Assembly: GCA_002011815.1 (NCBI GenBank) | Contig: MTOV01000002.1 | Span: 240,612-275,134, forward strand | DNA: 34,523 bases | DNA from: Nitrospirae bacterium JdFR-86 | Lineage (GTDB): Bacteria > Nitrospirota > Thermodesulfovibrionia > Thermodesulfovibrionales > JdFR-86 | Reading direction: 5' to 3' | Shown: positions 4,913 through 27,582 of the stretch, one piece after another | Numbering within the stretch: the stretch's first letter is position 1 | How the letters are laid out: each line of letters begins with the position of its first letter | Translations under genes and position numbers: made by a program | Notes under the pieces: generated by a model | Seen by the model: only the letters and a program-made list of their open reading frames with translations | Told to the model about the DNA's origin: nothing | Databases searched by the model: none

Positions 4913-4975
4913 CCCAGACCATGAAAGTCTATCGCAGAGAATTACAAGATGACAGAAAACGGATAAAGAGCGTTC

Positions 4976-6196: not shown

Positions 6197-6219
6197 ACAT
6201 CTACTGTCACGGAAAAAGC

Positions 6220-7368: not shown

Positions 7369-7396
7369 TAAATAATTTTTTGATAAAGGAGAAGAA

Positions 7397-8500: not shown

Positions 8501-8976
8501 ACTATTTAGCCATAGCAGATGATGTCCAGCTGGGGGAAAACGTAAAGCTCTCGAAGTTTGTAAATCTCTATGGCTGTTCTATAGGGGATAACACTAAGAT
8601 CGGTGCTTTTGTCGAGATTCAGAAGAACGCACGGGTCGGAAAGTACTGTAAGATTTCCAGCCACACGTTTATCTGTGAGGGCGTAACCATAGAAGACAAT
8701 GTCTTTGTCGGGCACAACGTTACATTTATAAATGACACATATCCCCGCGCTACAAACTCCAAGGGAGAGTTAAAGACCGAAAAAGACTGGAAAGTAGAGC
8801 CTACACTGGTCAAGAAAGGTGCATCCATTGGCTCCGGTGCAACGATTCTCAGCAATGTCACCATCGGAGAAAATGCAATTGTTGGTGCAGGCAGTGTGGT
8901 AACAAAAGATGTGCCTCCAAACTCCATTGTTATTGGAAACCCTGCAAGACTCCTAAAAACCCTGCACAATGAGTAA
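8497..8976 (+). CDS. Hexapeptide-repeat acyltransferase (WbpD/WlbB-like)
   Basis: Left-handed beta-helix acyltransferase, probably transferring acetyl from acetyl-CoA to the 3-amino group of a nucleotide sugar. Hexapeptide repeats run through most of the 159 residues (LGENVKLSKFVNLYG, IGDNTKIGAFVEI, IEDNVFVGHNVTF, IGSGATILSNVTIGENAIVGAGSVVTKDVPP) and it ends in the common IGNPARLLKTL. The ATG at 8497 overlaps the oxidoreductase stop. An upstream ATG at 8452 would add 15 residues that are merely the shifted reading of the previous gene's end. The last eight bases overlap the aminotransferase start. Confidence 0.9.
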   Translation: MNYLAIADDVQLGENVKLSKFVNLYGCSIGDNTKIGAFVEIQKNARVGKYCKISSHTFICEGVTIEDNVFVGHNVTFINDTYPRATNSKGELKTEKDWKVEPTLVKKGASIGSGATILSNVTIGENAIVGAGSVVTKDVPPNSIVIGNPARLLKTLHNE

Positions 8977-10177
8977 CAATACCAGAATTCCTTTTGTAGA
9001 TCTTATCACCCCTCATTTGGAGCTTAAGGAAGAACTCGGAGCGATCTTTGAGAAAGCCTTAAGCTCTGGAAGGTTTATTGGCGGACCTGTGGTCGAAGAG
9101 TTCGAGACGGAGTTTGCCAAGTACTGTGGTGTGAAATACTGTATCGGGGTAGCCAGTGGTACAGACGCCCTGCGGTTTGCACTTATAGCTGCAGGCATCA
9201 AGAAAGACGATACAGTGATTACAGTCCCGAACTCCTTTATCGCAACCACAGAGGCTATCTCTCAGACAGGGGCTCTGCCTGAATTCATAGATATCAACGA
9301 ACGCACCTATAATATGGATTCTGAAAAACTCAGGGAGTATCTGGAAACACAATGCTACATTGACAATGATACAGGCAGGCTCATAAGCAAAAGGACAGGA
9401 AGAGATGTTACTAGTATTGTTCCTGTGCATCTTTATGGTCAGACAGCTGACATGGAACCGATACTGGAACTTGCAGGGAAATACAATCTGGTTGTGATTG
9501 AGGACGCATGTCAGGCACATGGGGCTGAATATTTTTTTAAAAAGGAAGACCAATGGAGAAAGGCCGGCTCTATGGGACTTGCGGCTGCCTTTAGTTTCTA
9601 TCCGGGGAAAAACCTTGGTGCCTGCGGAGAAGGTGGTGCGGTCACCACTAACGATGAGGAAGTCGCCCGGAAAGTTAGAATGTTTCGGGATCACGGTCAG
9701 GCTAAAAAATACATCCATGAGATGGAAGGATACAACGGAAGGCTTGACGCAATACAGGCAGGAATACTCAGGGTCAAGCTCAGGCACATCAGCCAGTGGA
9801 ATGAAGACCGCCGCCGAAATGCCTATCTTTACAATGAACTGCTTGGTGGAATCGACGGCATCATAACACCCTATGAACCCTCATGGACAAAGCCTGTCTA
9901 TCACTTATATGTAATACGCACCAAGAACAGGGATGAACTCCAGAGGTATTTTTCAGAAAACCATATTGCCACCGGGCTTCATTATCCGATACCGCTTCAC
10001 CTGCAAAAGGCATACGAAAGATTAGGCTACAGGAAAGGCGATTTTCCAGTGTCAGAAAGGGTCGCTTCGGAGATTCTTTCACTGCCCATGTACCCTGGAC
10101 TCAGACCTGAACAGCAAAGCCATGTCGCTGAAAAGATAAAAGAATTCGTCCTGAACAGTACGCTGAATGTGTCTTAA
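8969..10177 (+). CDS. DegT/DnrJ/EryC1/StrS sugar aminotransferase (WbpE-like)
   Basis: PLP-dependent aminotransferase acting on a keto nucleotide sugar, with glutamate as usual donor. The PLP-binding lysine is K214 in SFYPGKNLGACGEGG. D179 in VVIEDACQAHGAE contacts the pyridine nitrogen, and ASGTDALRFAL is the phosphate-binding region at about 62-72. The 402-residue length is slightly long because of an insert at about 125-148 (CYIDNDTGRLISKRTGRDVT). It overlaps the acyltransferase by eight bases, and with it and the oxidoreductase forms a three-gene amino-sugar cassette. Substrate is inferred from neighbours. Confidence 0.92.
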   Translation: MSNNTRIPFVDLITPHLELKEELGAIFEKALSSGRFIGGPVVEEFETEFAKYCGVKYCIGVASGTDALRFALIAAGIKKDDTVITVPNSFIATTEAISQTGALPEFIDINERTYNMDSEKLREYLETQCYIDNDTGRLISKRTGRDVTSIVPVHLYGQTADMEPILELAGKYNLVVIEDACQAHGAEYFFKKEDQWRKAGSMGLAAAFSFYPGKNLGACGEGGAVTTNDEEVARKVRMFRDHGQAKKYIHEMEGYNGRLDAIQAGILRVKLRHISQWNEDRRRNAYLYNELLGGIDGIITPYEPSWTKPVYHLYVIRTKNRDELQRYFSENHIATGLHYPIPLHLQKAYERLGYRKGDFPVSERVASEILSLPMYPGLRPEQQSHVAEKIKEFVLNSTLNVS

Positions 10178-10183
10178 ACCCGA

Positions 10184-11224
10184 ATGGCTTTGAGACTGGA
10201 AGTCATAAACCCGATAGAGTACAGGAGATGGAACGACCTGCTGATCTCAAATCAGGACTACTCGTTTTTTCACTCCTCAAACTGGGCGCAGGTGCTGTGT
10301 GAATCATACGGATATAAACCGCTTTATTTTACATCCGTCAACAACGGCAGGCTTTCTGCCCTGGTGCCGGTCATGGAGATAAAAAGCTTCATTACAGGAC
10401 GCAGAGGCGTATCCCTTCCTTTCTCTGACTACTGCGAGCCATTGGTGTCTGAAAAAGGCCTTTTTCAGGACGTGGTCAACCGGATAATTGAACACGGCAG
10501 GGAAGCCGGCTGGAGATCTGTAGAATTAAGAGGCGGAAAGAACTTTCCACAGGATGTGCCTCCTTCTTCATATTACTATACCCACACACTGGAGCTTTCA
10601 GAGGATGAAGAGCAGGTCTTTGACCGCTTCCGGAGCAGTACAAAAAGGAATATAAAAAAAGCAGTCAAAGAAGGAGTGGCAGTAAGCATTCACAAATCAG
10701 CAGAGTCAGTAAAGGAATTTTACAGATTAAACTGCATGACCAGAAAACAGCATGGACTGCCACCACAGCCTTATCGCTTCTTCAAAGCGATATATGAGCA
10801 TATTATTTCCAGAGGTCTTGGATTCGTCGTGCTTGCATCCTACGGTAAAAAGAGCATTGCAGGCGCTGTTTATTTTCATCTAGGCAGAAAGGTTTTTTAT
10901 AAATATGGGGCTTCGGATAGAAGATACCAGCACCTCAGAGCAAACAACCTCGTCATGTGGGAGGCAATAAAATGGTACTGCCAGAATGGATATAAAAGTT
11001 TTTGCTTTGGAAGAACCGAGCCTGAAAACAAAGGACTCATGCAGTTTAAAGCCGGATGGGGTGTTAAAGAGAAAGTCATAAAATACTTCAAATACGACAT
11101 AAAGCGAGAAACCTTTGTAAAAGACTGCCCAAGAATGAATGGACTGCATAACAGGGTTTTCAGCAAGATGCCCATTCCCCTTCTGACGGTTATTGGTTCA
11201 CTGCTATACAGACATATAGGATAG
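10184..11224 (+). CDS. FemAB-like XrtA-associated acyl/aminoacyltransferase
   Basis: Member of the FemAB/GNAT-like group regularly found in XrtA loci; FemAB proteins transfer amino acids or acyl groups, so this one may decorate the polymer or a lipid-linked unit. Typical stretches are SFFHSSNWAQVLCESYGYKP near residue 27, FRSSTKRNIKKAVKEGV near 150 and the GNAT-like core GLGFVVLASYGKKSIAGAVYF. NNLVMWEAIKWYCQNGYK and GLMQFKAGWGVKE follow, all usual for the family. Length 346. It begins six bases after the aminotransferase stop without a clear ribosome site, so coupling is likely. The actual substrate cannot be told from sequence. Confidence 0.85.
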   Translation: MALRLEVINPIEYRRWNDLLISNQDYSFFHSSNWAQVLCESYGYKPLYFTSVNNGRLSALVPVMEIKSFITGRRGVSLPFSDYCEPLVSEKGLFQDVVNRIIEHGREAGWRSVELRGGKNFPQDVPPSSYYYTHTLELSEDEEQVFDRFRSSTKRNIKKAVKEGVAVSIHKSAESVKEFYRLNCMTRKQHGLPPQPYRFFKAIYEHIISRGLGFVVLASYGKKSIAGAVYFHLGRKVFYKYGASDRRYQHLRANNLVMWEAIKWYCQNGYKSFCFGRTEPENKGLMQFKAGWGVKEKVIKYFKYDIKRETFVKDCPRMNGLHNRVFSKMPIPLLTVIGSLLYRHIG

Positions 11225-11251
11225 CACGGGTTTTCCTGCAGGAAGGAAACA

Positions 11252-12199
11252 GTGATAAACAGTGGATACTATCGTTTCAGGTCGTTTATTCCAAGGCGTT
11301 TGCAGATTTTACTGCGGAGAAGAATAATGCTCAGGAGGCGCGCACTGCATGCAGACATCTGGCCTATAGATGAGAAAGCCAGCAGGCAGCCTGAGGGATG
11401 GTCTGGCTGGCCAGGGAAGAAAAGGTTTGCCTTAATCCTGACGCACGATGTGGAGACAGAAAGAGGTCAGGAAAAATGTTACAAGTTAACAAAGATAGAG
11501 GAGGCGCTGGGCTTCAGGTCTTCATTTAATTTCGTCCCTGAACGGTACAGTGTTTCAAGCGAACTCAGGCATTATCTTGTCAGCAACGGATTTGAAGTGG
11601 GTGTGCACGGGCTTTATCACGATGGAAAGCTTTATAAATCCAGAAAGATTTTTCAAGAACGTGCTGTCAAGATAAACAAGTATATAAAGGAATGGGGAGC
11701 TTCTGGCTTTCGTTCTCCTGCCATGCACCACAATCTTGAGTGGATACATGATTTGGACATAGAATACGATGCCTCTACATTTGATACCGACCCATTTGAG
11801 CCCCAGCCCGACGGCATGGGAACGATTTTTCCATTCTGGGTGTCAGGAAATTCCAATAATAAAGGATATGTGGAGCTTCCGTACACCCTTCCACAGGACT
11901 TTACGCTGTTTATCCTCATGGGAGAAAAGAGCATAGACATCTGGAAACAGAAACTGGACTGGATCATCGAGCACGGCGGCATGGCACTTCTTAACACCCA
12001 CCCGGATTATATGAGTTTTGATGAGACAGAACAAAACCCTGAGGAATATCCAGCGGAATATTATGAGGAATTTCTCAGATACATTAAATCCAGATACGAG
12101 GGTCAGTACTGGCATGTACTGCCCAAGGAGATAGCCCGCTTCTGGGCAGGGGACTCAAGAGGCAAGATGCATCGCAAAACCAGACACACGGATATCTGA
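11252..12199 (+). CDS. Polysaccharide deacetylase-like protein (NodB fold)
   Basis: Carbohydrate esterase 4-like protein, probably removing acetyl groups from the polymer or its intermediates. It starts at GTG behind a good AGGAAGG. The NodB first motif appears as LTHDVE (D66) at 63-68, the second as HGLYH with metal-binding histidines at 119 and 123, and the third as SGFRSPAMHHN. There is no signal peptide; the N-terminus is very basic (RRLQILLRRRIMLRRR), suggesting the cytoplasm or membrane inner face. A second, different deacetylase lies at 13394. Variants with THDVE differ from the classical TFDDG form, so substrate is uncertain. Confidence 0.83.
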   Translation: MINSGYYRFRSFIPRRLQILLRRRIMLRRRALHADIWPIDEKASRQPEGWSGWPGKKRFALILTHDVETERGQEKCYKLTKIEEALGFRSSFNFVPERYSVSSELRHYLVSNGFEVGVHGLYHDGKLYKSRKIFQERAVKINKYIKEWGASGFRSPAMHHNLEWIHDLDIEYDASTFDTDPFEPQPDGMGTIFPFWVSGNSNNKGYVELPYTLPQDFTLFILMGEKSIDIWKQKLDWIIEHGGMALLNTHPDYMSFDETEQNPEEYPAEYYEEFLRYIKSRYEGQYWHVLPKEIARFWAGDSRGKMHRKTRHTDI

Positions 12200-12215
12200 A
12201 AAAGGTAGTATAAAA

Positions 12216-13385
12216 ATGAGAGTCTGCATGCTCGCATATACGTTTTATGAGACTGACGGTCGCGTAAAGAGATACGCTGAGACACTTGCCAAGCGCGGTG
12301 ACCACGTAGATGTAATAGCCTTAAGGAGAGAAGGACAGAGGCACCATGAGATGCTAAACGGAGTAGAAGTACATCGAATACAAAAAAGGGTGTTTAATGA
12401 AAAACGGAAGACATCATATCTGTTCCGGCTAATAAAATTCTTCATTAACTCCACAATCTTCCTTACGAAAAGACACTTACGCAGTCCATACGACGTAATA
12501 CATGTCCATTCTGTGCCGGACTTTGAAGTGTTCGCCGCACTGCTTCCGAAACTGACAGGGGCAAAGATTATTCTGGATATTCACGACATAGTCCCGGAAT
12601 TTTACATCAGCAAGTTCAACGCAAGTAAAAGCTCCCTGCTTTATAAGGCACTGATATTAATCGAGAAGGCTTCCATTGCGTTTTCGAACCATGTGATTAT
12701 CTCAAACCATATCTGGCAGGAAAAATTAACTTCCCGCTCAGCCTGTAATGGAAAGTGCACAGCCATTCTGAATTATCCCGACCCTGACATCTTTTACAGG
12801 CGTCCTAAAGAAAAGAACAACGGCAAGTTCATAATCATATACCCGGGGACATTGAACTGGCATCAAGGGGTTGACATAGCAATCAAAGCGTTTGCAATCA
12901 TCAAAGACCAAGCCCCAGAAGCCGAGTTTCATATACACGGAGAAGGAAGCTCAAAAAGGTCACTCGAAAATCTGGTCTCCAGTCTGGGGCTTGAGAACAG
13001 AGTATTTTTCAAAAACTACCTCCCTGTGGATAAGATTGCAGAGGTGATGGCAAATGCAGACCTTGCTGTAGTGCCCAAAAGGGCTGACTCCTTTGGAAAC
13101 GAGGCATTCAGCACAAAAATACTGGAATTCATGGCGCTTGGCGTTCCTGTAATAGTCTCAGACACAAATATTGACAGACACTATTTCAATGACTCTGTGG
13201 TGAAGTTTTTCCATTCCGGCAATGAAAGGGACCTGGCAAAATCCATGCTCCTGCTGATAAAAGACCAAGCGTTGAGAGAACGCCTTGTGAAAAATGCATT
13301 TGAGTATGTCGGAAAAAATAACTGGGGTCTGAAAAAACAGGACTACCTTGACCTCATAGATTCCATTTGCTGTAACAATAAATAA
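12216..13385 (+). CDS. Glycosyltransferase family 4 (GT-B fold)
   Basis: Retaining GT-B glycosyltransferase adding one sugar to the lipid-linked repeat unit at the inner membrane. The N-terminal domain has MRVCMLAYTFYETDGRVKRY, VIHVHSVPDFEVF and ILDIHDIVPEFY. The C-terminal donor domain has IIYPGTLNWHQGVDIAIKAF, FHIHGEGS and the E-x7-E type element FGNEAFSTKILEFMALGVPVI. Length 389 is usual. AAAGGTAG precedes the start. Donor and linkage cannot be inferred. Confidence 0.9.
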   Translation: MRVCMLAYTFYETDGRVKRYAETLAKRGDHVDVIALRREGQRHHEMLNGVEVHRIQKRVFNEKRKTSYLFRLIKFFINSTIFLTKRHLRSPYDVIHVHSVPDFEVFAALLPKLTGAKIILDIHDIVPEFYISKFNASKSSLLYKALILIEKASIAFSNHVIISNHIWQEKLTSRSACNGKCTAILNYPDPDIFYRRPKEKNNGKFIIIYPGTLNWHQGVDIAIKAFAIIKDQAPEAEFHIHGEGSSKRSLENLVSSLGLENRVFFKNYLPVDKIAEVMANADLAVVPKRADSFGNEAFSTKILEFMALGVPVIVSDTNIDRHYFNDSVVKFFHSGNERDLAKSMLLLIKDQALRERLVKNAFEYVGKNNWGLKKQDYLDLIDSICCNNK

Positions 13386-13393
13386 ACATTAAT

Positions 13394-14251
13394 ATGGCAC
13401 TTCGCATTGACCGTCTGGCAACTTTGTATCTTGCCTATCCTCTGATGCAAAGACACCTGCGCAAGGGGATACATATCCCCATATTGATGTATCACAGCAT
13501 CTCAGATGACAGGGAGGACGGTGTTCATCCGTACTATCGCTTAAACACCTCTCCTGATATCTTTGCCAGCCACATGCGGTTTCTCTACGAGAATAACTAC
13601 TCTGCCATCAGTCTTGATGGGGTGTATCAGCAACTTGCATCAGGAGAAAGACCAGACAATAAGCTTGTGGCAATAACCTTTGATGACGGATACCGCGACT
13701 TCTACACACAGGCATTCCCGGTTTTACAACGATATCATTACACTGCAACCGTGTTTCTACCAACAGGATTCATTGACAATAAAGAACTAAGACTCAAGGG
13801 GAAAGAACACCTCAACTGGTATGAGATACAGGAGCTACACCACGCAGGAATAAAGTTCGGCTCGCATACGGTAACACACCCACAACTGAGGTTTCTAAAG
13901 AGCACAGACGTTGAGTTCGAACTTAGGCAATCCAAAGAGACCATTGAAGATAAGCTTGGAGCACCGGTAAATGCCTTCTCTTATCCTTTTGCATTCCCAG
14001 AGGAGGACAAGGAGTTTACGGAATATTTAAGAGACATCCTCCAGAAATCTGGGTACAAATGCGGGGTCAGTACCAGAGTTGGGACAACCAGCATAAAAGA
14101 CGATATTCTTTTTCTAAAGAGGATTCCAGTCAACTCCTGTGATGACACCCCCCTGCTCGAGGCTAAACTCGAAGGGGCTTATAACTGGTTTTACAAGTCC
14201 CAGTATCTATTTAAGATGGCAAAAAGAATACTTACTGCCAAGAACCTCTAA
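13394..14251 (+). CDS. Polysaccharide deacetylase (CE4, PgaB/IcaB-like)
   Basis: Second carbohydrate esterase 4 protein of the locus, with classical motifs. PILMYHSISDD is at 29-39, TFDDGY (95-100) holds the catalytic base and metal aspartate, GSHTVTHP (157-163) holds metal histidines 158 and 162, and AFSYPFAFPEED follows. The opening resembles PgaB/IcaB enzymes that act on poly-N-acetylglucosamine-like chains. No clear signal peptide is seen. It follows the family 4 glycosyltransferase by eight bases. With the other deacetylase it implies a partly de-N- or de-O-acetylated polymer. Confidence 0.9.
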   Translation: MALRIDRLATLYLAYPLMQRHLRKGIHIPILMYHSISDDREDGVHPYYRLNTSPDIFASHMRFLYENNYSAISLDGVYQQLASGERPDNKLVAITFDDGYRDFYTQAFPVLQRYHYTATVFLPTGFIDNKELRLKGKEHLNWYEIQELHHAGIKFGSHTVTHPQLRFLKSTDVEFELRQSKETIEDKLGAPVNAFSYPFAFPEEDKEFTEYLRDILQKSGYKCGVSTRVGTTSIKDDILFLKRIPVNSCDDTPLLEAKLEGAYNWFYKSQYLFKMAKRILTAKNL

Positions 14252-14261: not shown

Positions 14262-15134
14262 ATGGAACAAAAAGAACGATACGTGATAATAACACCTGTA
14301 CGGGACGAAGAAAAATACATCGCGCTCACCATCGAATCAGTCATCAATCAGACTGTAAAACCACTGGAATGGGTCATTGTAAATGACGGCTCAAGCGACA
14401 ATACCGGCAGAATAATTGACGAGTATGCAAGCCAGTATTCATGGATCCGTGCAGCACATAGGGAAAACAGAGGATTTCGTAAAGCTGGAGGTGGAGTCAT
14501 AGAAGCATTCTATGATGGGTATAACTCCTTGAAATCCAGAGAGTGGGACTTTATCGTAAAACTTGACGGGGACCTATCTTTCGAAAACGATTATTTCGAG
14601 AGATGCTTAGAGCACTTTAGGAGAGACCCGGAACTTGGTATCGGCGGAGGCTCTATTTACAACGCCGTTAACGGAAGCCTGAAGTTTGAAAAAGTTCCTG
14701 TCTTTCACGTAAGAGGTGCAACAAAAATATATAAAAGAGACTGCTGGAAAGCGATTGGTGGGATTTTAAACATTCCCGGATGGGACACCATCGATGAAGT
14801 GAAAGCGAACATGCTGGGCTGGAAAACCAAAAGCTTTTCTGAGTTGAAAGTAATCCATCACCGTTACACAGGGACGGCTGAAGGACTATGGCGCAATTCT
14901 ATAAAGAACGGGATGGCAAATTACATCTCAGGGTATCATCCGCTTTTTATGTTTCTTAAATGCTTAAAGAGGACTTTGCAGAAACCTTATATAGTAGGAG
15001 CAGCAGGGCTTTTTTATGGTTTTATAAGCGGCTATATCAAGAAGATACCCCAAGTTGATGACAAAGCCCTGATTGATTATCTAAGAAAACAGCAGATGAA
15101 TAAACTTCTGTTGAAGCCAACCATCTGGAAATAA
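14262..15134 (+). CDS. Glycosyltransferase family 2
   Basis: Inverting GT-A glycosyltransferase. It opens with YVIITPVRDEEKYIALTIES and has VIVNDGSSDNT for nucleotide binding, then FIVKLDGDLSFEN with the metal-binding DGD. RGATKIYKRDCWKAIGGI and WDTIDEVKANMLGWK form the acceptor side. The C-terminus includes a hydrophobic stretch (IVGAAGLFYGFISGY, about 243-257) that may tether it to the membrane. Length 290. It lies ten bases after the deacetylase. Donor sugar unknown. Confidence 0.9.
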   Translation: MEQKERYVIITPVRDEEKYIALTIESVINQTVKPLEWVIVNDGSSDNTGRIIDEYASQYSWIRAAHRENRGFRKAGGGVIEAFYDGYNSLKSREWDFIVKLDGDLSFENDYFERCLEHFRRDPELGIGGGSIYNAVNGSLKFEKVPVFHVRGATKIYKRDCWKAIGGILNIPGWDTIDEVKANMLGWKTKSFSELKVIHHRYTGTAEGLWRNSIKNGMANYISGYHPLFMFLKCLKRTLQKPYIVGAAGLFYGFISGYIKKIPQVDDKALIDYLRKQQMNKLLLKPTIWK

Positions 15135-15162
15135 AAGCTCGTTGAAGAACTAAATCAGGGAT

Positions 15163-16143
15163 ATGGATCTGTCCATAATAATAGTCAACTGGAACTCTGC
15201 AGACTATGTCAGGAAGTGTCTCCTGAGCATATACAGCCAGACGAAGGGGCTGGATTTCGAGGTCATTGTCATTGACAATGCCTCTCATGACAGATGCGAG
15301 GGAATCATAAGGAACGAGTTTCCACAGACAAAGTTCATACAGAGCAAGGAGAACATCGGTTTTGCAAGGGCTAATAATCTGGGTGCTCAGCACTCCTCAG
15401 GCAGAAACCTGCTTTTTCTAAACCCTGATACCGAGATAATCGGCTCCGCAGTCAATGTAATGTTTTCGTATCTGGAATCGATGCCAGATGCTGGGGCTGT
15501 GGGTTGCAAACTGCTTAACTCTGACTTATCAATACAAACAAGTTGTATCCAGCCTTTCCCAACGATCCTGAATCAGATTCTGGATGTTGAGTATTTAAAG
15601 TTAAGATTTCCCAAGTTTAAATTCTGGGGGATTAAACCACTGTTTTTCAGTAATAGCAAGCCAGAGAAAGTTGATGTTATTTCCGGTGCCTGCATTATGG
15701 TGAAAAGAGGGATATTTGAAAAAGTAGGGCTGTTCAGCACAGATTATTTTATGTACTCCGAGGATGTTGACCTTTGTTACAAGATTCAGAATGCAGGACA
15801 TAAAATATATTACATAAATGAGGCTGAGGTTGTTCATCACGGAGGAGGAAGCACGCGGGCAAAGAGGGAAGACTACTTTGCGGCCGTTCTTATGAGGGAG
15901 TCAATCTTCAGATTTATTAAAAAAACACGGGGAAGAACGAATGCCTTGATATATAAACTCACGATGTTGACTGTCTCACTGGGGCGTCTGATGCTTATTG
16001 CTGCTTTAATGCCGTTAGCCGTTTTGGCCGGCAAATATGACGCTTTAGCTTTCCCTTTTAATAAATGGAAAAAGGTCCTCAGCTGGTCCATGGGATTCGA
16101 AAGATGGGCAAGGGAATCGACCTGCAACAGGGGTGATTTCTAA
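15163..16143 (+). CDS. Glycosyltransferase family 2 (WbbL-like)
   Basis: GT-A glycosyltransferase of the rhamnosyltransferase-like group. MDLSIIIVNWNSADYVRKCL and VIDNASHD start the nucleotide-binding fold. ENIGFARANNLGAQ and LFLNPDTEI carry the DxD-like motif, and YFMYSEDVDLCYKIQNAGHKI is the typical acceptor/catalytic segment. A membrane stretch at about 267-287 (LTVSLGRLMLIAALMPLAVLA) is common in WbbL relatives. Length 326. Rhamnose transfer is only suggested by family resemblance. Confidence 0.9.
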   Translation: MDLSIIIVNWNSADYVRKCLLSIYSQTKGLDFEVIVIDNASHDRCEGIIRNEFPQTKFIQSKENIGFARANNLGAQHSSGRNLLFLNPDTEIIGSAVNVMFSYLESMPDAGAVGCKLLNSDLSIQTSCIQPFPTILNQILDVEYLKLRFPKFKFWGIKPLFFSNSKPEKVDVISGACIMVKRGIFEKVGLFSTDYFMYSEDVDLCYKIQNAGHKIYYINEAEVVHHGGGSTRAKREDYFAAVLMRESIFRFIKKTRGRTNALIYKLTMLTVSLGRLMLIAALMPLAVLAGKYDALAFPFNKWKKVLSWSMGFERWARESTCNRGDF

Positions 16144-16216
16144 ACCCAAGAAGGCTGTGATTCGGATAAAAACGCCCAATAAAACCAAATGTATGTACTG
16201 CTTTTAAGGCCCTCCG

Positions 16217-18121
16217 ATGTGTGCGATTTGCGGAAAGTTTAATTTTCAAGAAGGCCGCCCCGTAGAGTCGGCTCTCATCAAGAGGATGATGGATGTTATG
16301 AAACACCGGGGGCCTGATGAAGAGGGCATGTATATTGACCAACGGATAGGCATTGGGCACAAGCGGTTGTCGATTATTGATTTAAAGACAGGAAGACAGC
16401 CGATGTCAAATGAAGACGGAACAGTTTGGCTTGTATATAACGGAGAGATTTACAATTACAAAGCATTAAGGTCTTACCTTATTGGGAGGGGTCATGACCT
16501 TAAGACCGACTCTGATACCGAAGTCATTGTGCATCTTTATGAAGAGTATGGTGAAGGGCTTCTGTCAAAGCTTAGAGGAATGTTCTCTTTTGCCTTATGG
16601 GACAAGAAAGAAAACATTTTGTTGCTTGCTAGGGACAGGGTCGGAATAAAACCTCTTTATTATCATCTAAGTAATGATTCGCTTGTTTTTGCTTCCGAAA
16701 TTAAGGCCATCTTGGAAGACCCCTCTGTAAGGAGAGAAGTCAACCTTTCAGGTATAGACAGATTTCTGACATTTCTTTACATGCCTGGAAAAGAGACACT
16801 GCTAAGAAATGTTTATAAACTCAGTCCAGGCCATTATATGGTGGTCAAAGACGGAAAAGTCGAGGTAAAACAATACTGGGATCTGAACTTCGAAGAGTCT
16901 CCAGTCGGTAATAACCTAAAGGGCTCGGTGACAGAACTGACCGAACTGTTAAGAGAAACAGTTCAGGCACATATGATTAGTGATGTGCCGGTAGGTTTTC
17001 TACTAAGCGGGGGAGTAGATTCCACTGCACTTCTGTGTTTCGCCATTGAGGAGACCAACAAAGATATATATACATTCACGATTGGATTTGAGGGCGAGCA
17101 TTTCGCCGACGAAAGATATTACGCAAGGCTGGCCGCCAACAGGTTCGGAACAAGACATTATGAGATGACTATTACAGGGAGAGATTTCTGGGGGTTTCTT
17201 CCGAAATATGTTTGGCATATAGAGGAGCCTGTGTGTGAGCCACCTGCAATTGCATTGTATTATGTATCCAAATTGGCAAAAGAGCATGTTAAAGTCCTCA
17301 TCTCGGGTGAGGGCGGGGACGAGGCATTTGCAGGATATCAGAATTACAGAAACATGGTTTGGCTAGAACGGTTAAAAACCGTGTTCAACCCTTTTAATGA
17401 CAGTGTTTCAAAGCTTTTTCTCAGTTTGAGCCGTCTCGGGATTACTAAAAAATTTGAGAGATATGCAGCCCTTATGGCAATCCCTTTAGAAGAATACTAT
17501 TTTAGTCGCACTTCAACGCCTTTTAGCTTTTTCAACAAGAATCGTAATGAACTGTATTCCTCAGAGTTAAAAAATAAAGTGGACAAAGACTTTTCACTGG
17601 AACCAGTAAAGACCTCTTTCTCGCGTGTCGTCAAGCAAAACAACTTGAACAAGATGTTGTATGTTGACACAAAAACATGGCTTCCGGACGACCTTCTTGT
17701 GAAGGCTGACAAGATGACTCTGGTCAACTCTCTGGAACTCCGTGTTCCACTTCTCGACCATAAAGTGCTGGAGTTTGCAGCTGGCTTACCTACCAATTAT
17801 AAATTAGGTGGGTTTACAACTAAATACATTTTAAAGAAAGCTTTTTCTAATAAAGTGCCTAAAGAAATCTTATATAGAAGAAAAACTGGTTTTCCTGTTC
17901 CTTATGAATCTTGGTTTAGGAATGACTTAAAGAATAATATTTCCGATATCTTGATGGATAAAAGAACTCTACAAAGGGGTTATTTTAAAAAAAAAGCAAT
18001 AGAAAATTTAATTAAACAAAATTCAACTCAGGTGGATTATTCAAGAGAAATATTTTCTCTTTTGGTTCTTGAATTATGGCATCGGATTTTTATTGAAAAC
18101 AATGGTATTGTACTAGTATAA
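16217..18121 (+). CDS. Asparagine-synthase-like XrtA amidotransferase, composite 3' end
   Basis: Glutamine-dependent amidotransferase of the asparagine synthase B type that accompanies XrtA loci, where it probably amidates a uronic-acid group of the polymer. The class II glutaminase domain starts MCAICGKF with catalytic Cys2, and the synthetase domain has the PP-loop FLLSGGVDSTA at about 260 plus ISGEGGDEAFAGYQNY. Length 634 is normal and the frame is intact. The last ~110 codons, from about 17790, are abruptly AT-rich (78 G/C in 300 bases at 17821-18120) against 56 of 120 at 17641-17760. The conserved region around VNSLELRVPLLDHKVLEFA therefore looks like a recombination point. A 73-base gap precedes it. 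Confidence 0.92.
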   Translation: MCAICGKFNFQEGRPVESALIKRMMDVMKHRGPDEEGMYIDQRIGIGHKRLSIIDLKTGRQPMSNEDGTVWLVYNGEIYNYKALRSYLIGRGHDLKTDSDTEVIVHLYEEYGEGLLSKLRGMFSFALWDKKENILLLARDRVGIKPLYYHLSNDSLVFASEIKAILEDPSVRREVNLSGIDRFLTFLYMPGKETLLRNVYKLSPGHYMVVKDGKVEVKQYWDLNFEESPVGNNLKGSVTELTELLRETVQAHMISDVPVGFLLSGGVDSTALLCFAIEETNKDIYTFTIGFEGEHFADERYYARLAANRFGTRHYEMTITGRDFWGFLPKYVWHIEEPVCEPPAIALYYVSKLAKEHVKVLISGEGGDEAFAGYQNYRNMVWLERLKTVFNPFNDSVSKLFLSLSRLGITKKFERYAALMAIPLEEYYFSRTSTPFSFFNKNRNELYSSELKNKVDKDFSLEPVKTSFSRVVKQNNLNKMLYVDTKTWLPDDLLVKADKMTLVNSLELRVPLLDHKVLEFAAGLPTNYKLGGFTTKYILKKAFSNKVPKEILYRRKTGFPVPYESWFRNDLKNNISDILMDKRTLQRGYFKKKAIENLIKQNSTQVDYSREIFSLLVLELWHRIFIENNGIVLV

Positions 18122-18134
18122 GGTTACTTTGACA

Positions 18135-18146
18135 CTTAAATTTAAG
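18135..18146. repeat. 12-base perfect palindrome
   Basis: CTTAAATTTAAG is a perfect palindrome 14 bases after the amidotransferase stop and about 120 bases upstream of the -24/-12-like element, the distance range at which sigma-54 activators often bind. Its AT-only core makes chance occurrence plausible. Confidence 0.3.
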
Positions 18147-18228
18147 GAAATATTAGTTTAGTGGTTTTCATTTAAACAATACCCATAAACACTCATAAAT
18201 CAAGGACTTATAAGAAACTAGGATGAGC

Positions 18229-18244
18229 AAAGTTACTAAACTTT
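18229..18244. repeat. Inverted repeat AAAGTT-N4-AACTTT
   Basis: The two 6-base arms are perfect inverted copies around ACTA, 14 bases upstream of the -24/-12-like element. The spacing equals that of the CRP-type site further on. It could be an operator; nothing else supports it. Confidence 0.3.
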
Positions 18245-18257
18245 AATGAAATTAAAT

Positions 18258-18274
18258 TTGGCATAATTTTTGTC
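18258..18274 (+). promoter_or_regulatory. Candidate sigma-54 (-24/-12) promoter
   Basis: TTGGCATAATTTTTGTC has the -24 GG at 18260-18261 and, exactly ten bases on, GT at 18272-18273 where the consensus has GC. The TTGGCA half is strong and the -12 half is one base off. The locus encodes PrsR, a sigma-54 activator, which makes such a promoter expected in this system. The predicted transcript would start near 18285, leaving a leader of about 138 bases. Confidence 0.4.
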
Positions 18275-18331
18275 GATACAATTTTATTCTAATGGGAGTT
18301 GTTTTAATGATTAAGGATGATAAAGCATATC

Positions 18332-18347
18332 TGTGATACGAATCACA
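18332..18347. promoter_or_regulatory. Consensus CRP/FNR-family binding site
   Basis: TGTGATACGAATCACA is a perfect palindrome of the form TGTGA-N6-TCACA, the consensus for CRP-family regulators (cAMP-CRP, Clp and relatives). It lies 76 bases before the beta-helix start codon, and downstream of the transcript start predicted for the -24/-12-like element. It would therefore repress that promoter, or activate another one nearer the gene. Confidence 0.5.
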
Positions 18348-18369
18348 TTCATCTGTTAGAAAATATGTA

Positions 18370-18387
18370 TTGTTATAGTTGTTATAG
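18370..18387 (+). repeat. Tandem 9-base direct repeat TTGTTATAG x2
   Basis: Two exact adjacent copies of TTGTTATAG lie between the CRP-type site and the start codon. The first copy supplies a -35-like TTGTTA, with TATACA 17 bases after it (18393-18398). If that is a real promoter the leader would be only about 18 bases, so this reading is tentative. Confidence 0.35.
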
Positions 18388-18422
18388 CAGTATATACAAT
18401 TACTAGAGAGGAAGTTCTCAGA

Positions 18423-20003
18423 ATGAAGAAAAAAACATGTCTTTTGGTTGCTTTCTTCGCAATCCTTTTTTGCGTATCAAGTGTATCAGCTGCCACTTGG
18501 TATGTAGATAAAGATGCTACCGGTTTAAATGACGGCACATCATGGGAAAATGCATGGCAGAGCTTTGCTGATATAAATTGGAATAAAATTCAGCCCGGGG
18601 ATACTGTTTATATCAGTGGGGGAAGTACGAGTAAGACCTATAATGAAGGGCTTACGATTGGGGCGAGTGGTTCAGAGGGGAACCCAATTACAATTAAAGT
18701 TGGGCAGGATAGTGGACATAATGGAATAGTAATATTGGAGGGGGGTGCAGATTATGGAATTCATGTAAATGGTAAATCGTGGGTAACTATTTCCGGACAA
18801 TTGGACAATGGCATAGAGCCAAATATGATTGTTAGAAACTACAATAAAGATGCAATACTGCTTCAGTCCATTACTGGTATAGTAGTTGAGTATTTAGAGG
18901 TTGGTCCTATCACCAATTATGGACCTGCGTATGGGCATTGTGTGCATATTCGCGATGGTTATATTGGCGGGAGCAATAGAGTCCACCACAACAAAATTCA
19001 TGATTGTTATGATTATGGCATAATTATAAGGGACACTTCAGACTTATTCAAAAATGATGACTATTTACGGATAGACCATAATGAGATTTATAATCTTGGG
19101 CATGATGGTATTCACGCTGGTGCTAGTGCAGGTGGTTTAACAATTGACCATAATGAGATACACACAGCACTTTCTGGTGAGAATCAAAATCCGGTTTACA
19201 TTGACGGTATGCACCTTAGAGGATTTAACTACTTAACTGTAGCTTATAATAAAATTTACGATTTGGAAGGGCCAGATGGGATGTATGCGTATCTATACTT
19301 TGAGGCGGATACTGGACAATCAAATGTATCTGCAAATGACATCTATGTTTATAACAATGTTATATATGAGACAGATCAAAGCTATGACCACTATTCTGTT
19401 GGAATAGCTTTTGGGTGCAAAGCTTGTACGTCACTTACAAATGTAAGCATCCTAAATAACACGATTGTTGATATGGAATACAATGTGCTTGCTTTTAATA
19501 CATACAATGCCAACCCTGTATCGAACGTTATAATAGCTAATAATATTATTTATAACGGTTGCCTGAACAACATTGGAAGTAACCGTTACTTGATTGGATT
19601 AAGTCATTTGGATGGCATAACGACAGGTAGTTTCGGTGATACACCTACTCCTGATATAATTTGGGATTACAACTTGGTAGATGTAAGTAATAGCGATACA
19701 ATAATGGCAACATATAATGACAAACCTTATAACTACAATGATTGGAAGAGTGTTTCAGGATGTGATGCTAATGGTGTTACAAGTGATCCGACATTTGTAA
19801 ATTGGATAGAAGGGAACGCTGTTGATCTTCATTTAGACGCTACAGACACAGCCGCTATTAATCAAGGCCGGACACGAACTGAGTTCAGTGACGACTACGA
19901 TGGCATAACGCGTCCACAAGGGAACGCATGGGATATAGGTGCTTATGAGTATCATAAGCTGGCGCCAAGTCCTCCTACCAATTTGAGGGTAGTGAATAAT
20001 TAA
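18423..20003 (+). CDS. Secreted right-handed parallel beta-helix protein
   Basis: Exported protein, likely a polysaccharide-binding or -modifying beta-helix (lyase- or epimerase-like fold). The signal peptide is residues 1-23 (LLVAFFAILFCVSSVSA, cleavage before ATWYVD). The mature start TWYVDKDATGLNDGTSWENA is common in this group. Repeated coils follow (RVHHNKIHDCYDYGIIIRD, IDHNEIYNLGHDGIHAG, VAYNKIYDLEG, VYNNVIYET, ILNNTIVDM, IANNIIYNG) and then the closing segment RPQGNAWDIGAYEY. It ends in PPTNLRVVNN, which looks like the start of a fibronectin-III domain that is cut short. No PEP-CTERM sorting signal is present. Base use is AT-rich, unlike the left half of the operon. AGAGAGGAAG precedes the ATG. 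Substrate unknown. Confidence 0.85.
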   Translation: MKKKTCLLVAFFAILFCVSSVSAATWYVDKDATGLNDGTSWENAWQSFADINWNKIQPGDTVYISGGSTSKTYNEGLTIGASGSEGNPITIKVGQDSGHNGIVILEGGADYGIHVNGKSWVTISGQLDNGIEPNMIVRNYNKDAILLQSITGIVVEYLEVGPITNYGPAYGHCVHIRDGYIGGSNRVHHNKIHDCYDYGIIIRDTSDLFKNDDYLRIDHNEIYNLGHDGIHAGASAGGLTIDHNEIHTALSGENQNPVYIDGMHLRGFNYLTVAYNKIYDLEGPDGMYAYLYFEADTGQSNVSANDIYVYNNVIYETDQSYDHYSVGIAFGCKACTSLTNVSILNNTIVDMEYNVLAFNTYNANPVSNVIIANNIIYNGCLNNIGSNRYLIGLSHLDGITTGSFGDTPTPDIIWDYNLVDVSNSDTIMATYNDKPYNYNDWKSVSGCDANGVTSDPTFVNWIEGNAVDLHLDATDTAAINQGRTRTEFSDDYDGITRPQGNAWDIGAYEYHKLAPSPPTNLRVVNN

Positions 20004-20010
20004 AATTGAA

Positions 20011-21369
20011 TTGAGCCTCCCCGCCTTTAAGACAGAAGAAGCTGCAGCCCAAACGACTGTTACACTACTTGGTGTAACCTACAATACAGGCAATTATGGT
20101 GTTCGAGCGCTTTTGAGTGGTACGGTTGAGAGCATTGTGCAAACGTATGAAAATGTTCAGATCAACATTCTGGACTATGGTGTTGAACCAGACATCTGGA
20201 ATGAGCAGACATCCAGAGGGGATAAGAGCATCCCTCTCATCAACCTTAGGTTTACGTGGAAGCTCTACCTTCCCAACAATATTTTCCGTTTGTTATGCAT
20301 TACCGTGATAGCACGGCTTTTGCCTTCAAATGCATTAAAGAGACGGTTGCTTTATAGCAATCCTTGGCTTCGGCAAATCTTATCAGCTTGTGTTCATTTT
20401 TCTCTGTCTGGAGGAGACAGCTTCAGCGATATTTATGGTTTAAGGCGTCTTTTGTACGTCAGTCTTCCTCAGATTCTTGTGCTTTTACTAGATAAGCCAC
20501 TGGTATTGTTACCCCAGACGTATGGCCCTTTCAAGAATTGGTTTGCACGTTGCATCGCTCGTTGGATTCTTAAGCGTGCCACCCTAATTTACTCAAGGGA
20601 TGTTCGAGGATTAGCATTGGTAAGAAAGTTGTTTCCTAATGGAGAAGTCGAGGCTCATTTCGCTCCGGACCTTGGTTTTGCCATGCGCCCAGAATCAGTT
20701 CGAGAAGAGATTATTCATAAGTTAAGAAGCATTCGGAATCACAACCCTTTGGTTGGTCTAAATATAAGTCGACTCCTCTATATGGGAGGATATAATCGTA
20801 ATAATATGTTTGGCCTGAAGGAAGATTATCCATCATTAGTTCGAGGTTTACTTGACTTCTTGGTAAACAAATTAAAGGTCACCGTTTTGTTGATACCACA
20901 CGTTTTCGGTGGGCCGGAAAGTGAAGAAAGTGAATTGATGCTTTACCGATCCTTATGGCAGGATTTCCAAAAAAATTATGGAAATCGAATATTGTTTTTT
21001 AACGAGACATTCACACATCGACAGATGAAGACGATCATTGGTCAATGCACCTTGTTTATTGGATCGCGTATGCATGCCTGTATAGCCGCCATTTCGCAAA
21101 ATGTACCTTCTATCGCATTAGCATATAGTAATAAATTTACCGGTGTGATGAATTCCGTATGTGACGCAGTCCGAGTTGTGGACCTCCGTCAAGCCCAAAC
21201 ATATGAGGTATGCAAGACGGTTAACGACACACTCATAAATTGCCAACAGATTCGAGATCAACTGGAGCGTAGAATGCCAGAAATCAACGCGCAAATTTAT
21301 GAACTTTTTCGATCTGAGGCAGTCCAAAAAATGCTTAGTTGTGACGTTCTCGCGGAAAATGCGTCGTGA
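20011..21369 (+). CDS. Polysaccharide pyruvyl transferase family protein (WcaK-like)
   Basis: Protein of the polysaccharide pyruvyl transferase family; characterised members add pyruvate ketals from phosphoenolpyruvate to sugars. VTLLGVTYNTGNYGVRALLSGT is the family's N-terminal element, FSLSGGDSFSDIYG and LLPQTYGPFKNWFAR the middle, and FIGSRMHACIAAISQNVPSIALAYSNKF the C-terminal signature at about 350-377. The start is doubtful: TTG at 20011 has no visible ribosome site, no ATG lies between the in-frame TGA at 19993-19995 and the conserved domain, and the beta-helix stop is only seven bases upstream. Reinitiation or an altered 5' end are possible. GC is higher than in the beta-helix gene. 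Confidence 0.83.
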   Translation: MSLPAFKTEEAAAQTTVTLLGVTYNTGNYGVRALLSGTVESIVQTYENVQINILDYGVEPDIWNEQTSRGDKSIPLINLRFTWKLYLPNNIFRLLCITVIARLLPSNALKRRLLYSNPWLRQILSACVHFSLSGGDSFSDIYGLRRLLYVSLPQILVLLLDKPLVLLPQTYGPFKNWFARCIARWILKRATLIYSRDVRGLALVRKLFPNGEVEAHFAPDLGFAMRPESVREEIIHKLRSIRNHNPLVGLNISRLLYMGGYNRNNMFGLKEDYPSLVRGLLDFLVNKLKVTVLLIPHVFGGPESEESELMLYRSLWQDFQKNYGNRILFFNETFTHRQMKTIIGQCTLFIGSRMHACIAAISQNVPSIALAYSNKFTGVMNSVCDAVRVVDLRQAQTYEVCKTVNDTLINCQQIRDQLERRMPEINAQIYELFRSEAVQKMLSCDVLAENAS

Positions 21370-21415
21370 GGTGGGTATTACAAAGGCGAACTTACCTTAG
21401 AAGGTTAACACTATT

Positions 21416-22705
21416 ATGAACCCGCTCGTAGGACAGGTTACGCTGGTTTTGATTTTGGTGATTCTTTTCTTACCACGCAGGTGGGCTGCTCTGGGGGTTG
21501 TCTCAGGTGTTTTGTACGTCACTCAAAGCGAGTTCTTTGTGGTAGGTGGAATCGATTTCACAGCAATAAGGTTTATTATACTCGTTGGATTCATTCGGGT
21601 CGTTATGAGGAAAGAGGTTTCATTTTCGAGATTGAACAAGATTGACAAAAGCCTATTGATATTTAATATCGTATATTTATTAGTCTTTGCTCTGCGCTCT
21701 CAATTGAATCCCAGTATTCATTCAGGCCTAATGTATCAACTTGGTTTTTTTTGCGATGGTTTGCTGTCCTACTTTACATTTCGAGGACTTTTGAAAGACT
21801 TGGATACGTTCAGGCAGTTTCTAAAAGATATAGCATTTCTCATTCTGCCATTTACGATATTTATAATCATAGAAGGTGTAACAGGAAGAAATTTCTTTTC
21901 CCTCATGGGAGGTGTACCCGAAACACCAATTCTCAGGAAGGGCTATTACAGATGTCAAGGGAGTTTTCGTCATGCAATCACAGCTGGCACATTTGGTGCC
22001 ACTTTGGTACCCCTTTTCATAGGTCTGGCGCGGTTAGCAAACAAGAGGTTTTGGGCTGTGATTGGGATTATTTTGGGTGCATTGATCACAATTGCGTCGC
22101 ATTCTAGCGGTCCCCTTATGACATTTATTGGTGGCGTCACTGCATGGATGTGCTGGCCTTTACGTGAAAGGATGCGGATAGTGAGATGGGCGATCGTTGG
22201 TTTTTTTGTCTCACTGGCTGTGGTAATGAAAGCACCAGTTTGGTTCATCATTGATCGAGTTGGTGACCTCGTGGGAGCAGGGGATGGCTGGCACCGTGCT
22301 AATTTAATTGACAAATTCATTAATAGCTTCTGGGAGTGGTGGTTGATGGGAATGCCGATTGAAAAAACTGCGGATTGGGCTGCTACAAAAATGCCTTGGG
22401 GAACGGTGGATGTGACTAACGGGTACGTCTCAGTGGGTATCAATGGTGGGTTAATCTCCTTGGTTCTTTTTATATGGCTGTTTAAGAATTGCTATCAGTT
22501 ACTGGGAAGAGCCATGGAAAAAATCCGGCGTGGGGACACTCAAAATGATAAACGAAACGAAGTGCTATTGTGGGGTCTCGGCAGCGCTCTATTCAGTCAT
22601 ATGATGAGTCTTATTTCCGTCACTTACTGGGATCAATCGTACGTGATGTGGTACATGTTACTTGCAGTGATTTCCAGTTTGACAGAGCATTCAAACTGGA
22701 ATTAA
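21416..22705 (+). CDS. wzy: O-antigen polymerase/ligase-like protein (Wzy)
   Basis: Inner-membrane polymerase expected to join lipid-linked repeat units in the periplasm. The 429 residues are mostly hydrophobic, with roughly ten or more membrane segments (for example VTLVLILVILFLPRRWAALG, IAFLILPFTIFIIIEGVTG, AIVGFFVSLAVVMKAPVWFI). A large loop with YRCQGSFRHAITAGTFGATL resembles the Wzy_C/WaaL family core. AGAAGG lies ten bases before the ATG. It sits directly before the flippase gene. The polymerase rather than ligase role is inferred from the neighbouring Wzx and Wzz-like proteins. Confidence 0.82.
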   Translation: MNPLVGQVTLVLILVILFLPRRWAALGVVSGVLYVTQSEFFVVGGIDFTAIRFIILVGFIRVVMRKEVSFSRLNKIDKSLLIFNIVYLLVFALRSQLNPSIHSGLMYQLGFFCDGLLSYFTFRGLLKDLDTFRQFLKDIAFLILPFTIFIIIEGVTGRNFFSLMGGVPETPILRKGYYRCQGSFRHAITAGTFGATLVPLFIGLARLANKRFWAVIGIILGALITIASHSSGPLMTFIGGVTAWMCWPLRERMRIVRWAIVGFFVSLAVVMKAPVWFIIDRVGDLVGAGDGWHRANLIDKFINSFWEWWLMGMPIEKTADWAATKMPWGTVDVTNGYVSVGINGGLISLVLFIWLFKNCYQLLGRAMEKIRRGDTQNDKRNEVLLWGLGSALFSHMMSLISVTYWDQSYVMWYMLLAVISSLTEHSNWN

Positions 22706-22791
22706 TCAGTATCAAAAGGCTGTACAAGAAAAATGGGATTACTCCATATATTTTGAGTCAAGTCCTATATTATGGATGAACGGCAGAAAGA

Positions 22792-24246
22792 ATGAATCGG
22801 TTGTTTAACTCAATAGGAAATCTGCTGCGAGGCAGTGATATAAAAAGTAAGGCGGTACGTGGAAGTATGGCTTTAAGCACAGGAGCTATTTTTCAACGCG
22901 CGCTGAGACTGGGACGTATAATGATTTTGGCGCATCTTCTGGTACCGGAAGACTTTGGTCTCGTTGCCATCACCATGATGGTGGTGGTAATGTTGGAGTC
23001 TGTCACAGATGCTGGTATTCGACTTTCGATTATTCAGAACAAAGAAGGTACCAGTCCTTCGTATCTGAATGCCGCCTGGTGGTTCCAGTCCGCAAGAGGT
23101 CTCGGTTTGTTTCTTGTGGCATTTATTCTTGCGCCGTATATAGCTGTCTTTTACGAAAACCCCATACTTACTGGTTTGTTAAGGGTTTCTTTTTTATCTA
23201 TTTTATTTAATGGTTTGGTTAGCCCACGTGTTCACCTTCTAGAGCGGGAATTTCGGTTTGGAAAGTGGACACTGCTTTCACAAGTGTCTGCCCTATTAGG
23301 GACATTAATTACCATTATTTTGGCATATTATCTTCGTAGTGTATGGGCTATTGTCTTGGGGACAGTAGTGGAGCGTTTCCTTTATTGCTTGATGTCTTAT
23401 ATCTTTTATCCTTTTCGTCCCAGGCTTAAAGTTGACAAAAATAGCATTTCAAAGCTCTTTAAATTTGCTAAGGGGGTTTTTGGGCTACCTGTGTTGAACC
23501 TCATTTCGCGGCAGGCCGATATTTTTATCCTGGGTAAAGTAGTCGCTTCGGCAATTCTTGGAAGCTATTATCTTGCACTACAGCTAGCAGAGCAGTTTAG
23601 CAATTTCTTTTCCAGCGTGTTTTTCCCAGTTTTACTTCCTTCCTTTTCAGCAATGCAGGAAAATAAGTCAATTTTGAAAAGTGCTTTACTATCAGTAAAT
23701 TGTGGGGTTGCTACGCTGGGTATACCAATAGTGGCGTTCATGGCAGTAAATTCCCACAAGATCCTTTTAGTATTATATGGTAGTCAGTATACAAACGCAG
23801 AATTGGCATTTTCGATACTATCTTTAAATGTGTTTGCTCGTGCGCAAGCCGCTGTATTATCACAAGTTTATTTTGGGTTGGGCCTACCGCATCTTCTCCG
23901 TCGACAGTCTTTGAAGCGAACAGCGTTGATAGCCACTTTTATGTATCCAGCCGCACGATTTGCTGGATTATCTGGTGCTGCTTTTGTCATGCTTTCGGCG
24001 AACATTTCAATGCTTATTTTTCAACTATACAGCTTAAAAGGAATTCTACGTTTTAAGCTGATAGATTTTTTTGGTAAGTGGATTACAGGGATTGGATTGG
24101 GGATGCTTGTTTTGATGCCAAACGTTTTTCTGTCGGTTTTTAAAATTGACTCGCTCATACTTCAATCAGTACTTTCAATAGGAATGATGATAACTGTAAT
24201 CACCTTTGGATTTATCAAGACGTTTAGACAAACTACACTACAATAG
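22792..24246 (+). CDS. wzx: Wzx-like oligosaccharide flippase (MOP family)
   Basis: Inner-membrane flippase that would turn lipid-linked repeat units to the periplasmic face. The 484 residues carry about 12 to 14 membrane segments. The N-terminus has SMALSTGAIFQRALRLGRIMILAHLLVPEDFGLVAI, and FAKGVFGLPVLNLISRQADIFILGKVV opens the second half, both typical of the PST/MOP flippases (WzxC group). GCAGAAAGA precedes the ATG. The 86 bases between wzy and this gene hold no gene of their own. Confidence 0.9.
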   Translation: MNRLFNSIGNLLRGSDIKSKAVRGSMALSTGAIFQRALRLGRIMILAHLLVPEDFGLVAITMMVVVMLESVTDAGIRLSIIQNKEGTSPSYLNAAWWFQSARGLGLFLVAFILAPYIAVFYENPILTGLLRVSFLSILFNGLVSPRVHLLEREFRFGKWTLLSQVSALLGTLITIILAYYLRSVWAIVLGTVVERFLYCLMSYIFYPFRPRLKVDKNSISKLFKFAKGVFGLPVLNLISRQADIFILGKVVASAILGSYYLALQLAEQFSNFFSSVFFPVLLPSFSAMQENKSILKSALLSVNCGVATLGIPIVAFMAVNSHKILLVLYGSQYTNAELAFSILSLNVFARAQAAVLSQVYFGLGLPHLLRRQSLKRTALIATFMYPAARFAGLSGAAFVMLSANISMLIFQLYSLKGILRFKLIDFFGKWITGIGLGMLVLMPNVFLSVFKIDSLILQSVLSIGMMITVITFGFIKTFRQTTLQ

Positions 24247-24310
24247 ATCAAGATGTGAAATATTTAGAGCTCCATTCTGAATTTGGGCACATCAAGTAAG
24301 AAACTATAAA

Positions 24311-24961
24311 ATGCAAAATTCAGCCTTTCTTGATAAAGAGAACTCCTATTATACTTTTGTTAACGAGTCTCTACTTCCTTTGATCCCAGAGAGGCCGAAC
24401 ATTGTCATGGACATAGGTTGCGCTACAGGGCGGCTTGGCCAGAAATTGCTTCAAGCGGGTAACGCAAGTGAGCTTTACGGAGTAGAAATATTTGAACCAG
24501 CTGCCAACGAAGCGAAGAAAATTTATAAGAGGGTTCACGTTGGAGACATAGAAGAAATGAAGTTAGATTACAAAAATTACTTTGATGTTGTCGTTTGCGG
24601 CGACATATTGGAGCATTTAAAAGAACCATCTAAGGTGGTTAGTGAAATATATTCTTGGTTGGTAAAAGGAGGACTAATAGTTTGTAGTGTGCCAAATGTC
24701 CGGTACTGGCGAATCTGGCGAGATTTAATTTTCAAGGGGAAATGGGAATATACTATCGAGGGAATAATGGATCATACGCATCTACGATTTTTTACTTTAA
24801 GTTCATTCAGGAAAATGTTAATTGAAACATCTTTCGAGATTGAATATCAAGGTTTGCGTATCGCAAATGGTCTTAAACAGCGTGCATTTAACAGGCTGAC
24901 ATTCGGGCTTTTCGAAGAGTTTTTCGGAATTCAGATGTTGTTTCGTGGCCGGAAGAGATAA
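24311..24961 (+). CDS. Class I SAM-dependent methyltransferase
   Basis: Methyltransferase of the Methyltransf_23-like group, likely methylating a sugar or the chain end. Motif I is VMDIGCATGRLGQKLL (about 32-47), the acidic residue after strand 2 is E in YGVEIFEPA, and DVVVCGDILEHLKEP is the post-motif strand. GGLIVCSVPNVRYWRIW and HTHLRFFTLSSFRKML are typical of polysaccharide-locus methyltransferases. Length 216. The 64-base gap before it and the weak ribosome site suggest loose packing compared with the left operon. Acceptor unknown. Confidence 0.88.
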   Translation: MQNSAFLDKENSYYTFVNESLLPLIPERPNIVMDIGCATGRLGQKLLQAGNASELYGVEIFEPAANEAKKIYKRVHVGDIEEMKLDYKNYFDVVVCGDILEHLKEPSKVVSEIYSWLVKGGLIVCSVPNVRYWRIWRDLIFKGKWEYTIEGIMDHTHLRFFTLSSFRKMLIETSFEIEYQGLRIANGLKQRAFNRLTFGLFEEFFGIQMLFRGRKR

Positions 24962-25047
24962 TACCATTTATTTGGCATCGAGATCCACAATATTAGTAAT
25001 GTTATGCAAGCTATTAAGACACCAAATTTCATGAGGATTAAAAGATC

Positions 25048-26001: not shown

Positions 26002-26067
26002 CAAGCATATAGAGATCTTTTCAAAACCTTCTCAGTCGGATTAAAAGACAAGCAATGTGGAGAAAAG

Positions 26068-26211: not shown

Positions 26212-26224
26212 AAGGAGGTTTATT

Positions 26225-27403: not shown

Positions 27404-27472
27404 TAATTAAGATGTTATGATCACTTGAGTCGATCTTACTAATAAGGCAGAATGTTTATTTTGACTATTTTT

Positions 27473-27580: not shown

Positions 27581-27582
27581 AC

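Follow-up and report, generated by a model that had tools for sequence, protein, structure and literature searches.

An asnB-type gene in an exosortase-type exopolysaccharide locus of Nitrospirae bacterium JdFR-86 most likely spans the junction at which a block of sugar-coat genes was swapped. The explanation that we favour, with a probability of about 0.6, is a layered cassette exchange in which two related alleles crossed over within a conserved part of asnB. A first-pass annotation had reported an abrupt GC drop inside this gene and read it as the trace of homologous recombination with a diverged copy, marking the left boundary of an exchanged polysaccharide cassette. The drop and the intact frame are confirmed here, while the nature of the donor and the position of the boundary have to be revised.

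The window, i.e., the whole stretch of 34,523 nucleotides that was analysed, is an exosortase-type exopolysaccharide locus in which a conserved core flanks an exchangeable middle on either side; all genes of the window discussed below are on the forward strand. The left core (1-14251) belongs to an exosortase locus of the XrtA/PEP-CTERM type, has a host-like GC3 of 0.47-0.52 and encodes an export protein, a chain-length determinant, a tyrosine kinase, an ATPase, a sugar transferase, a FemAB-like protein, a glycosyltransferase and a polysaccharide deacetylase. Composition is host-like again from 27849 on, in the right core (GC3 0.47-0.50), which starts with an exosortase (27849-28769) and continues with the histidine kinase PrsK (28776-30854) and the response regulator PrsR (30879-32240). 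The XrtA/PEP-CTERM exopolysaccharide locus has reportedly been described in an earlier paper. The window resembles it in that the chain-length determinant, tyrosine kinase and ATPase set (TIGR03007, TIGR03018 and TIGR03015), PrsK (TIGR02916) and PrsR (TIGR02915) all score above curated cut-offs. It differs in that the exosortase and the amidotransferase stay below the XrtA cut-offs: the exosortase passes the general model TIGR02602 but reaches 143.2 of the 208 bits set for the XrtA model TIGR03109, and the asnB product reaches 568.3 of the 816.9 bits set for the XrtA amidotransferase model TIGR03108.

The composition step inside asnB

The asnB-type gene (16217-18121) is 634 codons long. Its product scores 521.6 bits against TIGR01536 (cut-off 267.1) and is likewise above cut-off for PF00733 and PF13537, and the translation contains both the catalytic Cys2 at the N-terminus (MCAICGK) and the ATP-pyrophosphatase loop (LLSGGVDSTAL). 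The position of the gene in a glycan locus suggests a putative role in sugar amidation instead of asparagine synthesis. Codons 1-526 (16217-17794, hereafter the head) have near host-like composition and encode the Ntn glutaminase domain, including Cys2, and most of the synthetase domain, to which the SGGVDS loop belongs. Codons 527-634 (17795-18121, the tail) are AT-rich with cassette-like codon usage, and the family alignment still runs on to residue 627.

The GC figures given in the first-pass annotation are exact, with 56 of 120 bases (46.7%) at 17641-17760 and 78 of 300 (26.0%) at 17821-18120, and all 634 codons are open across the drop, as it had stated. By maximum likelihood, the GC change-point within the gene is at 17795, codon 527. 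GC3 falls from 0.449 to 0.191 if the gene is split at codon 520, the optimum (support interval 509-541), and none of 2000 codon permutations gave a split as strong. No other gene among the 262 in 400 kb of the same contig has an internal GC3 step as large (log-likelihood gain 14.1 for asnB; runner-up 6.9), and over the last 114 codons asnB has the lowest GC3 (0.193; next lowest gene 0.316).

A step of this kind is not a general property of the family. We compared 66 asnB homologues drawn from the class itself, Omnitrophota and further phyla: GC3 of the tail minus that of the head averages +0.008 (SD 0.052) in them compared to -0.255 here, about 5 SD from the homologue mean, and none of the 66 has the step; the first-pass annotation had held that its recurrence in orthologues would speak against an exchange. 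Amino-acid make-up as the sole cause is ruled out as well, given that a score based on synonymous codons only also switches; the tail is somewhat enriched in residues of the FYMINK group (0.40, compared to 0.33 in homologues).

The downstream block and its codon habit

Seven genes follow asnB between 18423 and 27403. The first encodes a secreted right-handed beta-helix protein (18423-20003; PF13229, NF041518) and has the lowest GC3 of all contig genes tested (0.32, z = -4.1). A search for its relatives at E<=1e-10 in 228 genomes of the class and 285 Omnitrophota genomes returned nothing, an empty answer without positive control and therefore a weak one. Next come a polysaccharide pyruvyl transferase-like gene (20011-21369; PF04230; GC3 0.41) and a gene for a multi-pass membrane protein (21416-22705; GC3 0.45) that has no Pfam or NCBIfam match. 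From its placement, which is that of a polysaccharide polymerase, the latter is probably of the O-antigen-polymerase type; within the class it occurs in only 3 other genomes, all of one family (f4) and all with this locus. The block is completed by a Wzx-type flippase (22792-24246; PF13440, PF01943; GC3 0.37) and by three genes with Pfam matches and GC3 values of 0.39-0.41, namely a methyltransferase (24311-24961), a GT2 (25048-26001) and a GT4 (26129-27403), the last gene of the compositional cassette.

These seven genes share a T-ending codon habit that is foreign to the genome, and the asnB tail matches it. Their GC3 is 0.32-0.45 and their T3 0.30-0.45, compared to 0.44-0.52 and 0.19-0.29 for the genes on the left up to 16143; outside the window, gene GC3 is very even (mean 0.471, SD 0.037, in 400 kb of the contig). 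No other seven-gene run in the sampled 400 kb has a GC3 as low or a T3 as high. In a synonymous-only codon model with leave-one-out scoring, all core genes (15/15) came out as core-like and all block genes (7/7) as cassette-like. With the same model, the asnB head scores -0.019 per codon, i.e., slightly core-like, and the tail +0.178, i.e., cassette-like. Codons 521-634 together reach +20.3 nats, whereas 114-codon stretches of core genes, taken as the null, have a mean of -13.3 (SD 5.8) and a maximum of 0.5. The best switch point on synonymous codons only is codon 380 and not 520-527, because the head is nearly codon-neutral between these positions; GC therefore places the seam better than codon choice does. 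Elsewhere on the contig there is a second seven-gene run of low GC3 (mean 0.406; G000:C1 340738-349870, or 100127-109259 in window coordinates), which is probably another acquired block.

Relatives on either side of the step

The closest known relative of asnB is on a 3257-base contig of an Omnitrophota MAG (L005), on which two GT2 genes precede asnB as they do in the window. The GT2 genes here (14262-15134, GC3 0.44, and 15163-16143, GC3 0.50) and asnB are 61%, 65% and 69% identical to those of L005, while relatives in the same class reach only 35-45% (at best 45% for asnB and 35-39% for the GT2 at 15163). Mis-binning of L005 is unsupported, its GC of 37% and GC3 of 0.27-0.37 fitting its genome (GC3 median 0.36). 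It is possible, judging from these identities, that the GT2-GT2-asnB unit was exchanged between phyla, i.e., this lineage and Omnitrophota. The five genomes of the same family contain no asnB orthologue. Neither there nor in the collections searched did we find parental alleles, sister strains that have or lack the cassette, or a donor sequence.

The L005 asnB stops at residue 560, so that residues 561-634 have no close comparison. Identity to L005 is 68% over residues 1-520 and 79% over residues 527-560 (34 residues); the best homologue other than L005 reaches 57.5% over residues 521-560. Separate trees for head and tail, as the first-pass annotation had suggested, both pair the window with L005, with SH-aLRT values of 100 for the head and of 92 for the tail, the latter from only 34 shared columns. 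The nearest relatives that it had expected to differ are therefore one and the same up to residue 560, an outcome that it had itself named as a refutation and that here speaks against a distant donor; at least as far as this residue the tail does not come from a distant asnB. A crossover between near alleles would likewise give a single nearest relative on both sides. Across most homologues, the tail is conserved like the head (44-49% versus 40-44%).

We compared the window with the loci of three genomes of the same order (G049, G008 and G108), all from family f4. The left core is collinear in all three, with 47-71% identity over 6220-14251 and 47-75% for the genes from 7397 to 13394. From 14262 on, identity drops to 33-41% (polymerase 50-52%) and the gene order is different: the GT2 pair is 33-36% identical to its positional counterparts, asnB 41%, the pyruvyl transferase 41% (G049 and G008) and the flippase 37%, and in none of the three loci is a beta-helix gene found directly after asnB. 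What differs from these relatives thus starts near 14251 and not at 17795. Orthology at 47-71% reaches no further than gene 13394, and its drop lies 3.5 kb to the left of the GC step. Contrary to the earlier claim, the step is therefore not where the exchanged region begins; it is a real left compositional edge, that of a block made up of the asnB tail and the genes 18423-27403.

Other loci of the order vary in similar ways. The middle genes of G008 have a GC3 of 0.42-0.49 compared to 0.59-0.64 in its core, without a step inside asnB, indicating that AT-richer inner genes recur in the exosortase locus. Near position 18516 of the G008 locus (L159, G008:C54), the polymerase follows the GT2 pair without the asnB that G049 has in between; asnB is an optional part of the locus. 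A further locus of the order (L119, G045:C50) shares with the window the order of asnB, exosortase, PrsK and PrsR; its GC3 also jumps, from 0.47 to 0.65, at a glycan-gene edge. Unlike here, that edge lies between genes (8587/8692), upstream of an asnB pair, and not inside asnB.

The drop in identity at 14262 and the continuation of the L005 lineage through the step would also fit an entry of the whole middle (14262-27403) as roughly one piece, the left part of which has since ameliorated or was closer to the host at the start, with no crossover in asnB. We consider this unlikely: amelioration affects all codons and would not leave a GC3 step of 0.26 within one gene, and such a step is unmatched in the 261 other genes and the 66 homologues.

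The AT-rich patch and the origin of the seam

Segmentation of 14-26 kb returned a single patch, 17795-18444, with 26.5% GC between flanks of 42.7% and 40.9%. Low GC therefore continues past the asnB stop codon, through an AT-rich intergenic stretch (18122-18444 by segmentation) up to the start of gene 18423; the contig's non-coding DNA has 42% GC on average (400-kb sample). Within the patch, 76 bases upstream of the ATG of the beta-helix gene, lies a perfect CRP/FNR-type palindrome, TGTGATACGAATCACA (18332-18347, forward strand), which is a candidate site and has one match in the window versus 0.02 expected by chance. Upstream of the same gene, a search for a sigma-54 promoter with up to one mismatch gave no match. 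There is no support for edges marked by a mobile element, an RNA gene or site-specific repeats: Rfam gave no match, and the repeats linking the two edges are weak and chance-sized. The patch DNA had no relatives among phages or plasmids, and no viral relatives of the asnB protein were found.

The patch being more AT-rich than all its surroundings and taking in a non-coding stretch, and the tail protein still being orthologous to that of L005, AT-biased mutation or relaxed selection confined to 17795-18444 could be considered, in a vertically inherited gene and unrelated to the downstream cassette. This is improbable, more so than an entry in one piece: a tail conserved like the head shows that selection is not relaxed, and its synonymous codon choice is that of the next seven genes. 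An assembly chimera joining the asnB genes of two related organisms is conceivable for a genome in 25 contigs but very improbable, as it needs a second join near 27404-27848, where the host-like core resumes; the open frame and the order of the genes are those expected of a working locus, the contig is 451 kb long, and the genome has a completeness of 100 and a contamination of 0. The least probable origin of the step, which taken by itself it would explain, is recombination with a distant asnB copy of another clade, the donor initially proposed, given the closeness to L005 of residues 527-560, the pairing in the tail tree and the absence of a second asnB copy from the genome, although this contradicts a distant source up to residue 560 and residues 561-634 alone may still have one.

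The intact frame and the switch from a slightly core-like head to a block-like tail are most simply explained by a crossover within asnB. Homologous recombination in the gene, as originally suggested, would be in line with this; the distant donor is not, as far as residue 560. In the layered exchange that we favour, donor and crossover as well as the order and number of events are inferred. An older layer, with the L005-type lineage and host-like composition, would comprise the two GT2 genes and asnB, from 14262 to about 17794. A younger or less ameliorated layer, with its foreign T-ending codons, would comprise the asnB tail, the AT-rich patch and the seven genes to about 27403. RecA-type homologous recombination may have joined the resident asnB to an AT-richer, related allele from its own sub-clade, with the crossover in the conserved segment around codons 505-527, a possible homology arm just before the step. 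As read from the sequence, this would have brought in the 3' end of asnB along with the genes behind it and produced a hybrid that is functional and, the two parents being one and the same gene, still in frame. One donor of a single composition does not quite fit a patch of 26.5% GC next to a block of about 41%, and the downstream block may itself be composite, given the more AT-rich patch. It is a doubtful further idea that asnB serves as a shared homology arm for exopolysaccharide cassettes between phyla (this lineage and Omnitrophota); if so, the segment VNSLELRVPLLDHKVLEFA would recur as a breakpoint in unrelated loci.

In the O-antigen loci of classical bordetellae, segments of lower GC have breakpoints at their edges and inside genes, and their transfer was inferred to be homologous recombination without mobile elements (PMC3849452). 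The window is similar in being a surface-glycan locus with a lower-GC segment and a probable breakpoint inside a gene. It differs in that it comes from an uncultured lineage and is an exopolysaccharide locus of the exosortase type, and in that the Bordetella breakpoints come from several sister strains, whereas ours comes from composition and order-level relatives. Exchange of AT-rich glycan segments is an established process, of which the asnB seam is a clear new example; it leaves the general picture unchanged. Composition by itself makes the seam visible, in an uncultured lineage for which no sister strains have been sequenced, and the presence of the GT2-GT2-asnB unit in an Omnitrophota genome hints at interphylum exchange. 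Seams inside genes that keep the gene working reveal where blocks of surface-sugar genes can be exchanged.
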